A stretch of DNA of 7,012 bases from Streptosporangiaceae bacterium. GTDB taxonomy: Bacteria > Actinomycetota > Actinomycetes > Streptosporangiales > Streptosporangiaceae. The translations under genes were made by a program, and so were the position numbers. Positions 1-5,112 of the stretch are shown piece after piece. Positions within the stretch are counted from its first letter, which is position 1. Every line of letters begins with the position of its first letter. Location of the stretch: assembly GCA_030050125.1 (NCBI GenBank), contig JASIJN010000326.1:1-7012 (forward strand), in the 5' to 3' direction. The notes beneath the pieces were generated by a model. The model saw only the letters and a program-made list of their open reading frames with translations. It had not been told where the DNA came from and searched no databases.

Positions 1-878
1 GCCGGAGCATCCGGCGTTGCCGGAGCCGTCGGGGGCAGCTGGTGAGCAGATGCCACGCCGTTGGATCCGGCGTGCCCAACGCCACGCGAACCGGACGACA
101 CCGCCTCGCCCGGACCCGTAGGCGCCGCGCCAGCCGAAGGCCGCGCACCCCCGGCGGTCCTGGCCTCGACGGCGGAGCCAGCGCCGCCCGAGGGCCCCGC
201 ACCGCTCGAACCACCAGCACCCTTCCAGCCGTCGGAGGCACCACCGCGCGAACCCTCGGGCGCCGGGCCCGTGCCAGCCGGCGCTGCGGAGCGTTCGGCG
301 GTCTGCGGGCCCGACATCGGCGGACCGCCCGCCGACGGCGCGGACCCGCCCGGTCTTGGCCTCGGGATCCAGCGTGCCCAGTCAGACCACCGTGCCCAGC
401 TAGCCCAGCCGCGCCGCCCGCCCCGGGTCGGCGGCTTGACCTGGCTCTCCAGCTGCTTCAGCGGCTCGCCTGGCCGCCAGCGGGCCGTGATCGGCCGGCT
501 CGTCACCTTGATCTCGCCGGTCAGCGGGCGCCCATCCTTGTTGGTCAGCTGCGGAGAATCCGCCTCGGCGCTATCGGCCTCGCCCTTACCCTGTGGCTTC
601 CACAGGACGACCCGGCTGGCCGCGGCGGCTCGCTCGCTGCGCCGCGCCTCAAGCCGGGCGCGCTCGCGCTCGACCACGGTTTCCGGTTCTCCGATGCTCG
701 AGAGAATCCGCATGACTTCAGCCGGATCGGCCGTTCCCCGCACACCGGACTGGCGCTCGATGAAGTCACCGATCCGGGCGAGGAACGCACGCCTGTCCTC
801 CGGCTTCAGCCGATTCCGCGCCACAACCGAGAGCCGGTTGAGGTAGTCGCGGATAAGTTGCTCGGCGGGGGGCCTCAT
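1..878 (-). CDS. HAAS/DUF1700-like N-terminal domain protein with Trp repeat and low-complexity tail (3' end outside window)
   Basis: An open minus-strand frame begins at ATG 878 and stays open for 292 codons to the window edge, so the C-terminus is missing. The start is supported by GAGGG nine bases upstream. Residues ~5-72 are predicted helical: a YLNRLS start, an acidic/basic middle (LKPEDRRAFLARIGDFIE) and an SIGEPETVVERE end. This resembles the HAAS/DUF1700 domain found in actinobacterial and firmicute membrane or signalling proteins, typically ending in a 'lG.Pe..a' motif. Residues 73-157 are a charged linker. Residues 158-170 hold five tryptophans spaced exactly three apart. From ~171 on the chain is Pro/Gly/Ala/Ser-rich and probably disordered. 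No signal peptide or membrane segment is visible in the part present; HAAS proteins often carry membrane helices further on, so one may lie outside the window. The gene lies downstream of groEL on the same strand, 122 bp away, behind a terminator-like stem. The function is unknown. Confidence is high that it is a real gene, moderate for the domain. Confidence 0.75.
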   Translation of the reverse strand, partial: MRPPAEQLIRDYLNRLSVVARNRLKPEDRRAFLARIGDFIERQSGVRGTADPAEVMRILSSIGEPETVVERERARLEARRSERAAAASRVVLWKPQGKGEADSAEADSPQLTNKDGRPLTGEIKVTSRPITARWRPGEPLKQLESQVKPPTRGGRRGWASWARWSDWARWIPRPRPGGSAPSAGGPPMSGPQTAERSAAPAGTGPAPEGSRGGASDGWKGAGGSSGAGPSGGAGSAVEARTAGGARPSAGAAPTGPGEAVSSGSRGVGHAGSNGVASAHQLPPTAPATPDAP

Positions 879-3313: not shown

Positions 3314-3589
3314 TCAACCGCCCGCGACCGCGGGAATCACCGAGACCTGAATGCCGGCAGGCACCTCGGTATCGAGTCCCTGGGCCAGCCGGACGTCGTC
3401 CTCGCCGACGTACACGTTGACGAAGCGCCGCAGCGTCCCGCCCTCGTCGAGAATCCGGCCGGCCAGGCCGGGATACGCGGCGTCCAGCCCGGCGATGACC
3501 TCGCGCAAGGTCCCGGCCTGCGCGGTGACCTCGGCGGCGCCGCCCGTGTAGCTGCGCAAGATGGTGGGGATGCGGACCGAGACGCTCAT
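3314..3589 (-). CDS. MoaD/ThiS-family ubiquitin-like sulfur carrier (CysO-like)
   Basis: This 91-residue beta-grasp protein ends in AVAGG, with Gly90-Gly91 as the carboxyl terminus that an E1-like enzyme (MoeZ/MoeB type) would adenylate and convert to a thiocarboxylate. Overall it resembles M. tuberculosis CysO as I remember it: [14 protein letters not shown] at the N-terminus, a central [13 protein letters not shown] strand and [10 protein letters not shown] at the end. Its ATG at 3589 overlaps the stop of the preceding ThrC-like gene by four bases (ATGA), so the two are translationally coupled and made under the same SAM riboswitch. No cysM, mec (JAB protease) or molybdopterin gene is next to it, which argues against a dedicated role in cysteine or molybdopterin synthesis. 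I infer that it donates sulfur to the enzyme encoded before it. The family call is very sure, the partner moderately so. Confidence 0.95.
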
Positions 3590-4893
3590 GCGACGACCGC
3601 CTTTCTTGCGTGGCCGGACGACTCCAGCTCGGCGAAAGCCTGCAGAGTGGGGCGTATGGGGCTGACCGGGCCGAAGGACCCGGCCACGGCGTCGAGCGTC
3701 TTCAGGCCGTCGCCGGAATTGATGATCACGGTCTCGGCCTCGGGGTCCAGTTGCCCGGACTCCAGCAGCCTGCGGGCGGTGGCCAGGGTGACCCCGACCG
3801 CGGTCTCGCCGAAGATGCCCTCGGTCGCGGCCAGCAGCCTGATCGCGTCCACGACTTCCTCGTCGCTCACGTCGTCGACCGCACCGCCGGTGCGGCGCAC
3901 CACGTCGAGCACGTACGGCCCGTCCGCCGGGTTGCCGATGGCCAGCGACTTGGCGATCGTGTCCGGCCGGACCGGCTGTACCACGTCGTGCCCGCCCCGG
4001 AACGCGGCCGCGACCGGGGCGCAGCCTGCGGCCTGGGCGCCGAACACCCGGTAGTCCGCCTGGTCCACCAGGCCCAGCCCGAGCAGCTCCCGGAACGCCT
4101 TGTCGATCTTGACCAGCTGGGCGCCCGACGCCACCGGGACCACGACCTGCCGCGGCAGCCGCCAGCCGAGCTGCTCGGCGATCTCAAACCCGATGGTCTT
4201 GGAACCCTCGGCGTAGTAGGGCCGCACGTTGACGTTGACGAACGCCCAGTCTTCCCGGTCGTCGGCCAGCTCGGAGGCCAGCCGGTTCACGTCGTCGTAG
4301 GTGCCGTCGACCGTGACCATGGTGCCGCCGTAGACCGAGGTGCCCAGGATCTTCGGCGGCTCCAGGCTGGCCGGGATCAGCACCACCGAGCGAATGCCCG
4401 CCCGGGCCGCGGCGGCGGCCACGGCATTGGCCAGGTTCCCGGTGGAGGGGCAGGCCAGGATCTTGAAGCCCATCTCGATCGCGGCGGCCAGCGCGACCGC
4501 GACGACCCGGTCCTTGAACGAGTGGGTGGGGTTGGCCCGCTCGTCCTTCACCCAGACGGCCCGCATGCCGAGCGCGGCGGCGAGCCGGTCCGCGCGGACC
4601 AGCGGGGTGCCGCCCGGCTCGGTGTTCGGCCGCGCGGCGACGTCCGGCGGCACCGGGAGCAGGCTGGCGTAGCGCCAGATGTTGGGCGGCCCTGCCTCGA
4701 TGGATTCCCTGGTCAGCGCCGGGAAGTCGTAGCGGACCTCCAGCGGGCCGAAACACTCGGAGCAGGCGTGCTGGGCGCCGAGCTGGCAGGTCTGCCCGCA
4801 CTCGCGGCAGGACAGCCCGCTGGCATGGCCGAACCGGGACGCGGCCGGGCCGGCCGCCGGAGCCGGGATGGTGGTTGCTGCAGGTGTGGTCAC
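3586..4893 (-). CDS. thrC: Threonine-synthase-family PLP enzyme; possible homocysteine synthase under SAM riboswitch
   Basis: This 435-residue fold-type II PLP enzyme would be annotated as threonine synthase (O-phosphohomoserine to threonine). Cys29-x2-Cys32 and Cys44-x2-Cys47 form an N-terminal zinc-ribbon-like module. NPTHSFKDR at 121-129 holds the PLP lysine Lys127; STGNLANA at 150-157 is the substrate-loop motif; SGDGLKT at 393-399 closes the PLP site. The usual glycine-rich phosphate loop (GNFG in E. coli ThrC) appears here as SGAQL at 256-260. The start is GTG at 4893, nine bases after GAGAGG. At 435 residues it is longer than the ~350-360-residue ThrC of actinobacterial thrA-thrC-thrB clusters, so it may be a second, specialised paralogue. 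It is preceded by a SAM-I riboswitch and overlaps a sulfur-carrier gene, which points to methionine/homocysteine synthesis rather than threonine. The family is certain; the reaction is inferred. The gene symbol reflects the family only. Confidence 0.93.
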   Translation of the reverse strand: MTTPAATTIPAPAAGPAASRFGHASGLSCRECGQTCQLGAQHACSECFGPLEVRYDFPALTRESIEAGPPNIWRYASLLPVPPDVAARPNTEPGGTPLVRADRLAAALGMRAVWVKDERANPTHSFKDRVVAVALAAAIEMGFKILACPSTGNLANAVAAAAARAGIRSVVLIPASLEPPKILGTSVYGGTMVTVDGTYDDVNRLASELADDREDWAFVNVNVRPYYAEGSKTIGFEIAEQLGWRLPRQVVVPVASGAQLVKIDKAFRELLGLGLVDQADYRVFGAQAAGCAPVAAAFRGGHDVVQPVRPDTIAKSLAIGNPADGPYVLDVVRRTGGAVDDVSDEEVVDAIRLLAATEGIFGETAVGVTLATARRLLESGQLDPEAETVIINSGDGLKTLDAVAGSFGPVSPIRPTLQAFAELESSGHARKAVVA

Positions 4894-4910
4894 GTAGCGA
4901 GGCCTCTCTC

Positions 4911-5054
4911 CTCATCTTTCCCGGCGGTCGTCTGGCCGCGGGCCGGAGTTAGCACCTGTCACGGAATGGCCTCGCCGTCGTGGCGCGGACACGCTTGTCA
5001 CCGTGATGGTTGCCGGGGCTTCACAGGGCCGATCCCTCCACCCCTCTGGATGAG
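4911..5054 (-). promoter_or_regulatory. SAM-I riboswitch (S-box) controlling the ThrC-like/sulfur-carrier operon
   Basis: The minus-strand RNA has the S-box core in order. P1 is CTCATC (5054-5049) pairing with GATGAG (4916-4911). The 5' conserved block is AGAGGGGTGGAGGGATCGG, then GCCC-TGTGAAGCCC, then GGCAACC (5014-5008). P3 is TCACGG (5006-5001) with CCGTGA (4964-4959) and a long variable loop. GGTGCTAACTCC (4956-4945) follows. P4 is TCCGGC with GCCGGGA, leading to GAAAGATGAG. This class binds S-adenosylmethionine and normally turns off methionine and sulfur genes when SAM is high. Only 17 nt separate P1 from the GTG start and there is no terminator stem, so control is probably translational: the Shine-Dalgarno GAGAGG (4908-4903) starts two bases after P1. 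I found no convincing promoter hexamers upstream, though TACAAC (5069-5064) is placed where a -10 would be. Confidence 0.96.
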
Positions 5055-5112
5055 CAATATGAAGTTGTAGTGAGAACTGTAGCCCGAAATGCGCGCACGG
5101 TCCGCGTGGGGT

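Follow-up and report, generated by a model that had tools for sequence, protein, structure and literature searches.

A probable MetM/MetO methionine biosynthesis operon behind a SAM-I riboswitch in Streptosporangiaceae, and actinobacterial MetM loci without an adjacent MetO

In the CysM/CysO pathway, the phosphate of the substrate is replaced by the sulfur of a carrier protein. For methionine, Hasebe and colleagues reportedly found that MetM and thiocarboxylated MetO convert O-phosphohomoserine to homocysteine, and the Wolinella route of Krishnamoorthy and Begley is said to depend on a MetY-type enzyme (PF01053) acting on O-acylated homoserine. The MetM/MetO pair was named in Streptomyces albulus (Hasebe, Adachi, Maruyama, Hamano 2024, Appl Environ Microbiol 90:e01247-24, as cited in PMC12172450). 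According to the available excerpts of PMC12172450, a SAM riboswitch lies 5' of S. albulus metM, and MetM relieved methionine auxotrophy. Also described in these excerpts is a homolog from Microcystis that shares 51.6% identity with S. albulus MetM and is reported to have threonine synthase and threonine deaminase activity; no increase in methionine accompanied it, it lacks the riboswitch, and a metO-like gene adjoins it. A protein-thiocarboxylate route to methionine is also known from Wolinella succinogenes (Krishnamoorthy and Begley 2011, as referenced in an excerpt of PMC5764234). The same source, as excerpted, names Acidimicrobium ferrooxidans, Aquifex aeolicus, and Pyrolobus fumarii as organisms without the routes to homocysteine recognized at that time. 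The MetM/MetO system is real and already known. A sequence-only reading of the locus studied here had tentatively pointed to Streptomyces work on a ThrC-like enzyme paired with a sulfur carrier; the pointer was correct, as this is the MetM/MetO of S. albulus in the excerpts of PMC12172450, and the novelty of the pair is thereby removed. Our additions beyond the known system are a genome-wide accounting, markers that tell MetM from ThrC, and lineages without MetO.

We analyzed a stretch of 7,012 nucleotides (the window) from a Streptosporangiaceae bacterium (GenBank assembly GCA_030050125.1, contig JASIJN010000326.1), in which a SAM-I aptamer, a 435-aa open reading frame, and a 91-aa open reading frame follow one another in the order of transcription on the minus strand (Table 1). 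The window shares with S. albulus, as excerpted, a ThrC-like enzyme, a neighboring carrier gene, and an upstream SAM riboswitch, but it comes from another actinobacterial family. We propose, at a probability of roughly 90%, that the pair is a MetM/MetO methionine biosynthesis operon under a SAM-I off-switch that forms homocysteine from O-phosphohomoserine. MetM, a PLP enzyme related to ThrC, would take O-phospho-L-homoserine from the threonine pathway and swap its phosphate for the sulfur of the MetO C-terminal thiocarboxylate, and homocysteine would be freed after release from the carrier. At high SAM, the aptamer would close; because its P1 stem extends into the region where the ribosome would bind, translation of metM and the overlapping metO would fall. 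What MetM catalyzes, where its sulfur comes from, how the product leaves the carrier, and whether SAM turns the operon off are points on which we draw on inference and on the cited work. Our own computations cover the identity of the genes and the riboswitch, their conservation, the closeness of the enzyme to Streptomyces members of the MetM clade, a separate ThrC in relatives, and complementarity with MetX. The proposal is supported by the family matches of the leader and both genes, a MetM clade apart from ThrC that has a Cys4 motif and altered active-site positions, a separate ThrC in nearly all genomes surveyed, the complementarity with MetX, searches of MetM-only genomes in which MetA was undetected, a SAM-I match in every MetM genome of the class draw described below and at nearly all metM loci examined, the published S. 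albulus system as cited, and the 63% identity of window MetM to a Streptomyces-type ortholog. That a homocysteine-forming module was at hand had been suggested from sequence alone; the published system, as cited in the excerpts of PMC12172450, the separate ThrC, and the MetX complementarity favor this view, in which the chemistry is predicted.

Table 1. Positions of features in the window and in related loci and genomes
Feature	Position	Strand	Remarks
SAM-I riboswitch aptamer (S-box leader)	4909..5056	-	RF00162; 5' of metM
P1 3' strand into purine-rich putative ribosome-binding sequence GATGAGGAGAGAGG, with 15-nt linker to GTG	4894..4916	-	putative ribosome-binding role
metM, 435 aa, GTG start, threonine-synthase-family PLP enzyme, proposed homocysteine synthase	3586..4893	-	
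Cys4 zinc-ribbon-like motif, metM codons 29-47 (C29, C32, C44, C47)	4753..4809	-	putative metal binding
metM Lys127 codon in SFKDR, expected PLP lysine	4513..4515	-	invariant residue in alignment
metM stop/metO start overlap ATGA	3586..3589	-	
metO, 91 aa, ThiS/MoaD-type sulfur carrier, ends VAGG	3314..3589	-	PF02597
metO C-terminal Gly-Gly codons, expected thiocarboxylation site	3317..3322	-	
Second SAM-I preceding GNAT gene	L187:2364-3005	-	PF13302
Second SAM-I preceding GNAT gene	L189:2360-3121	-	PF13302
Second SAM-I preceding GNAT gene	733-nt stretch before metM in L008		by inspection
Third ThrC-like paralog	G001:C97, G013:C5:1291831, G014:C11, G027:C12, G033:C2, L160		
SAM-I match without MetM	G047, G066, G072, G100, G115, G269, G276, G286, G293, G301, G316, G335, G359, G366, G373, G376		class-draw genomes
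MetO-less groups on the MetM tree	L008/L009; L044/L051; three Nocardioides (L052, L064, L077); Pseudonocardiales clade		

The match of the leader to RF00162 spans the full model (positions 1-108) and, at 73.9 bits (E = 2e-16), exceeds the gathering score of 44.4. The canonical SAM-I aptamer noticed in the sequence-only reading was therefore confirmed, as was the CysO/MoaD-like gene that overlaps the enzyme gene by ATGA. A threonine-synthase-family gene (PF00291, TIGR00260) does follow the aptamer, at a spacing of 15 nt (Rfam end 4909 to GTG at 4893) rather than the 17 nt first given. We compared 47 leaders, that of the window and those of 46 loci, and in 46 of the 47 the 3' end of the aptamer lies 1 to 18 nt 5' of the chosen metM start; the exception, L008, has 733 nt between the two, and the start codon may be wrong at L052, where the spacing is 1 nt. 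A SAM-I match is present at all 39 further metM loci, and a metO-like carrier gene lies 3' of metM in 57 of 81 loci, the window counted. Because it recurs in this way, the arrangement of aptamer, metM, and carrier is not a product of chance. The 3' strand of P1 in the window (GATGAGGA) runs directly into the purine-rich sequence, and no terminator-like site was found between positions 4850 and 5250, from which it is most likely that SAM, by holding the P1 stem, keeps the ribosome from binding. A CCTC stands behind P1 in 37 of the 46 linkers, against a mean of 2 and a maximum of 7 among shuffled linkers (2000 rounds), and it could pair with GAGG of P1, with an effect of either sign. An unconstrained fold of the leader lacked the aptamer and had a stability no better than that of shuffles (z +1.24); the switch model therefore draws its support from the match to Rfam and from the spacing kept across loci. 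The excerpts of PMC1262725 describe Actinobacteria as seemingly the sole group in which the base stems of riboswitches directly overlap the translation start with no extra hairpins, and these excerpts report no conserved RNA structure 5' of methionine or threonine operons.

Other genes are also associated with SAM-I elements in MetM genomes. In three of them, a second, compact SAM-I riboswitch (~90 nt) lies 5' of a GNAT acetyltransferase gene (Table 1). In Actinosynnema (G020, L186:330-2928), a second SAM-I riboswitch precedes ABC importer genes whose products (NIL-domain ATPase, permease, and NlpA lipoprotein) form a MetNIQ-like methionine importer. From its neighborhood, we take SCO4293 of Streptomyces coelicolor to be a metM ortholog. 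ArgR binding has been reported just 5' of this gene, labeled 'putative threonine synthase' (PMC3293853, PMC5839063, both as excerpted). If SCO4293 is a metM ortholog, arginine control would be added to SAM control.

MetM and MetX largely complement each other across the class. In a draw of 373 Actinomycetes genomes, MetM is present in 232 (E ≤1e-60, less two genomes near 1e-70, from an initial 234) and MetX in 237 (E ≤1e-60 to TIGR01392, a model whose curated cut-off of 500 bits was reached by none of the 373 genomes and none of 14 control genomes). MetM occurs without MetX in 129 genomes, MetX without MetM in 134, both in 103, and neither in 7, for an odds ratio of 0.04 (Fisher p 2e-26, kinship ignored). 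MetA was detected in none of the 73 MetM-only genomes searched (73 of 129) and in two of the seven genomes having neither MetM nor MetX. MetM or MetX is present in 366 of the 373 genomes, a figure that rises to 368 with MetA; MetM, MetX, and MetA all went undetected in five (G052, G055, G115, G223, and G410), which may be auxotrophs, have draft gaps, or use another route. A SAM-I match occurs in all 232 MetM genomes versus 16 of the 141 others, and the gathering score was passed in 246 of these 248. The sixteen genomes with a SAM-I match and no MetM are listed in Table 1.

We also chose 45 genomes from the 80 loci, all 45 of which have a SAM-I match (a single one in 38), and from these selected 27 for spread. 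The same 8 of the 27 genomes carry both MetX (scores of 364 bits or more) and MetY (above its cut-off). A search of the genome for metX, metY, and metB had been proposed on the basis of the sequence; in these relatives, MetX and MetY both went undetected in the same 19, with many of the loci being contigs of metagenome-assembled genomes (MAGs) and absence from such drafts being weak evidence. The two genomes that hold the best matches to the window, G001 (L001) and G002 (L002), both carry MetX and MetY, and MetM may be redundant in the organism of the window. The 103 MetM genomes of the class draw that retain MetX, these two among them, count against a simple story of replacement, and against the MetM/MetO reading itself.

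The solved structures nearest to window MetO are 3dwg and 4n6e, the first of which, labeled 'culture filtrate antigen' in the PDB, we take to be CysO of Mycobacterium tuberculosis. A C-terminal Gly-Gly is present in 83 of 84 carriers compared, and a tree of these 84 sets MetO apart from CysO at 100/100, with MetO as one clade; identity between MetO and most of the compared CysO sequences is 47-57%. The carrier is of the kind found in the CysM/CysO/Mec pathway, whereas the enzyme beside it is ThrC-derived and not a CysM, the carrier clade is distinct, and neither the list of open reading frames nor a Pfam search revealed a mec gene within the window. With the Wolinella route, the locus would share a protein thiocarboxylate as sulfur donor for methionine, but the window enzyme matches PF00291 only and no MetY-type enzyme lies beside the carrier. 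Elsewhere metM and metO are separated by gaps of up to 156 nt, compared to the ATGA overlap in the window. A predicted MetO structure (without the first residue) was set aside for its mean pLDDT of 66, with no alignment used.

A dedicated MetO does not accompany every MetM. Beside the 57 loci with metO after metM, 17 of the 81 have no carrier within reach (their sequence continues for 450 nt or more), and 7 are cut. These 17 loci count against the MetM/MetO reading and argue that the carrier is not always needed. MetO absence on the MetM tree takes four label changes, with bootstrap support unsettled and the direction presumed (Table 1). Actinosynnema and Nocardioides are examples of taxa with a MetO-less MetM. 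That a dedicated MetO is missing at four places on this tree goes beyond the published reports found; literature searches, the reach of which stopped short of the primary MetM/MetO paper, returned no report of a MetO-less MetM. Residue differences that set MetM beside a MetO apart from MetO-less MetM were not used, as they mainly track one clade rich in Pseudonocardiales. One Pseudonocardiales MAG, G008, has two metM genes (L008 and L063) from different parts of the tree, neither beside MetO, which either transfer or a mixed bin may explain.

The carriers in genomes with MetO-less loci are those of cysteine synthesis. We searched eight such genomes whole, and the best carrier in each is CysO-like (48-55% identity), with a second, weak match in G022 and G024; MetX and MetY went undetected in six of the eight (G008, G024, G027, G033, G034, and G037). 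In the class draw, the best carrier match is weaker than 1e-27 in 53 of the 232 MetM genomes, a thin line that limits the MetO-less claim to the genomes checked by locus. Thirteen class-draw MetM genomes without MetX have one carrier match each, not close to metM (G218 has a second match of 24 bits); ten of them have more than 900 nt of carrier-free sequence behind metM, another two are truncated there, and the last gave a fragmented match. In all 13, the carrier lies beside mec and cysM, metM has a SAM-I match, and MetA was not found. The carriers of MetO-less genomes fall on the CysO side of the 84-carrier tree. Sixteen genomes in all (six and ten) have a MetM with a riboswitch and, as their clear carrier, the CysO of mec-cysO-cysM, with MetX and an adjacent MetO undetected; the MetY search covered the six and the MetA search the ten. 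MetM in these 16 genomes may borrow CysO or use sulfide. We give even odds to the view that several actinobacterial lineages lost a dedicated MetO and that their MetM draws sulfur from the CysO of cysteine synthesis. If true, one carrier feeds both cysteine and methionine, and the SAM riboswitch on metM sets the split; the MetO-less lineages make such sharing directly testable.

Alternatively, MetM could use free sulfide in the cell, with the carrier merely helping, which would explain the MetO-less lineages without a shared carrier. The persistence of the riboswitch at the 17 loci without an adjacent MetO is in its favor. However, the 57 loci with metO after metM and the MetO clade apart from CysO point to a lasting role for the carrier, and CysO is present to serve where MetO is missing. 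We consider this account unlikely; as it alters the sulfur donor and not the product, it is compatible with a homocysteine-forming MetM.

The enzyme itself is plainly related to threonine synthase. Window MetM matches PF00291 (241 bits) as its sole Pfam family and TIGR00260 thrC at 256 bits, above the cut-off of 167, and scores slightly below the cut-off of PRK08197 (286 versus 303 bits). Its closest solved relatives are threonine synthases (for example, 1uim and 2d1f), and every named match among the best 120 of each of two protein searches is labeled threonine synthase. The best-matching genome locus, L001, is from a Streptosporangiaceae MAG, and its enzyme is 85% identical to window MetM. 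Over 409 aa, window MetM is 63% identical to L183, a Streptomyces-type ortholog (the named best matches of which are from Streptomyces and relatives) and not the S. albulus MetM sequence itself. Given the 'threonine synthase' labels on MetM, automatic annotation can leave the methionine synthesis of many actinomycetes seemingly without an explanation.

Our alignment combines 81 MetM sequences, one from the window and 80 from other loci, with 26 ThrC sequences from genomes that also carry MetM. The two share the SFKDR motif, in which Lys127, presumably the PLP lysine as known from the family, is invariant in all 81 MetM and 26 ThrC sequences (97% criterion). The N-terminal cysteines C29, C32, C44, and C47 are present in 81 of 81 MetM sequences, and this stretch is absent from all 26 ThrC sequences; the motif is zinc-ribbon-like and may bind metal. 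Among other differences fixed in 81 of 81 MetM versus 26 of 26 ThrC sequences, MetM has L154 for T, N222 for S, R224 for N, Y227 for R, S256 for N, G257 for A, and K262 for A, and positions 255 and 259 also differ, with one MetM exception each. MetM positions 222 and 227 align with S155 and R160 of Thermus ThrC, which we take to be ligands of the substrate phosphate; our literature search on the phosphate-binding residues of Thermus ThrC found no mention of 'Arg160' among the papers listed. If 222 and 227 are phosphate-ligand positions, MetM perhaps holds its substrate differently, and R224 may be involved. In a tree with four ThrC sequences, the MetM clade splits from ThrC at 100/100, with a long-branch warning. 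MetM can be told from ThrC by simple markers, namely its four-cysteine motif, its altered residues, and a SAM-I aptamer 5' of the gene. A predicted MetM structure was set aside (mean pLDDT 55, narrow alignment of 26). In addition to MetM and the short ThrC, some MetM genomes encode a third ThrC-like paralog of full length (Table 1), which is 35-40% identical, scores 184-217 bits, and aligns from about residue 20.

A separate short ThrC is present in 26 of the 27 MetM genomes, and the remaining one, G002, has a fragment only. This agrees with the expectation in the sequence-only reading of a second, shorter thrC, and MetM is not the only thrC-like gene in these 26 relatives. It also bears on whether MetM might combine two functions, as a homocysteine synthase with real threonine synthase activity whose balance is set by sulfur supply. 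Against such a combination, residues 154, 222, and 227, which we take to bind the substrate phosphate in ThrC, are replaced in MetM, and ThrC is kept separately. The activities of the Microcystis homolog, with its adjoining metO-like gene, are consistent with two functions (PMC12172450, as excerpted). These activities and the lack of a methionine rise in the same excerpts count against the MetM/MetO reading. We regard a two-function enzyme as quite improbable.

Very improbable, in our view, is a plain second threonine synthase that is SAM-controlled to balance the threonine and methionine branches, with the adjacent carrier incidental. The TIGR00260 match above its cut-off, the uniform threonine synthase names in both best-120 lists, and the threonine synthase activity of the Microcystis homolog (excerpts of PMC12172450) speak for it. 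However, we rejected a plain ThrC identity on the replacement in MetM of residues fixed in the 26 ThrC sequences, the separate ThrC, and the complementarity with MetX, and the SAM-I riboswitch with its carrier and the published function of MetM, as cited in the same excerpts, likewise point to MetM/MetO. A CysM/CysO-type cysteine synthase, suggested by CysO as the closest solved structure to the carrier, was rejected as scarcely credible, given 256 bits to thrC against 45 bits to cysK and 48 bits to cysKM (both far below their cut-offs), a mec-cysO-cysM cluster located elsewhere in the genomes checked, and the MetO clade apart from CysO.

On the 5' side of metM, the window has two divergently oriented genes, one otsA-like and one otsB-like (the latter with its end only), and on the 3' side of metO lie a cold-shock gene and groEL (the latter by inspection of the open reading frame). 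A 292-aa open frame with a long low-complexity tail runs off the window edge (positions 3-878, minus strand) and has no match in Pfam or NCBIfam. Two inverted repeats of the form TTANCACTC-N9-GAGTGCNAA lie 5' of groEL (positions 2755-2781 and 2790-2816), and by name we take them to be the CIRCE/HrcA operator. With up to one mismatch allowed, this CIRCE-type pattern has two matches in the window, compared to none in 200 shuffles.
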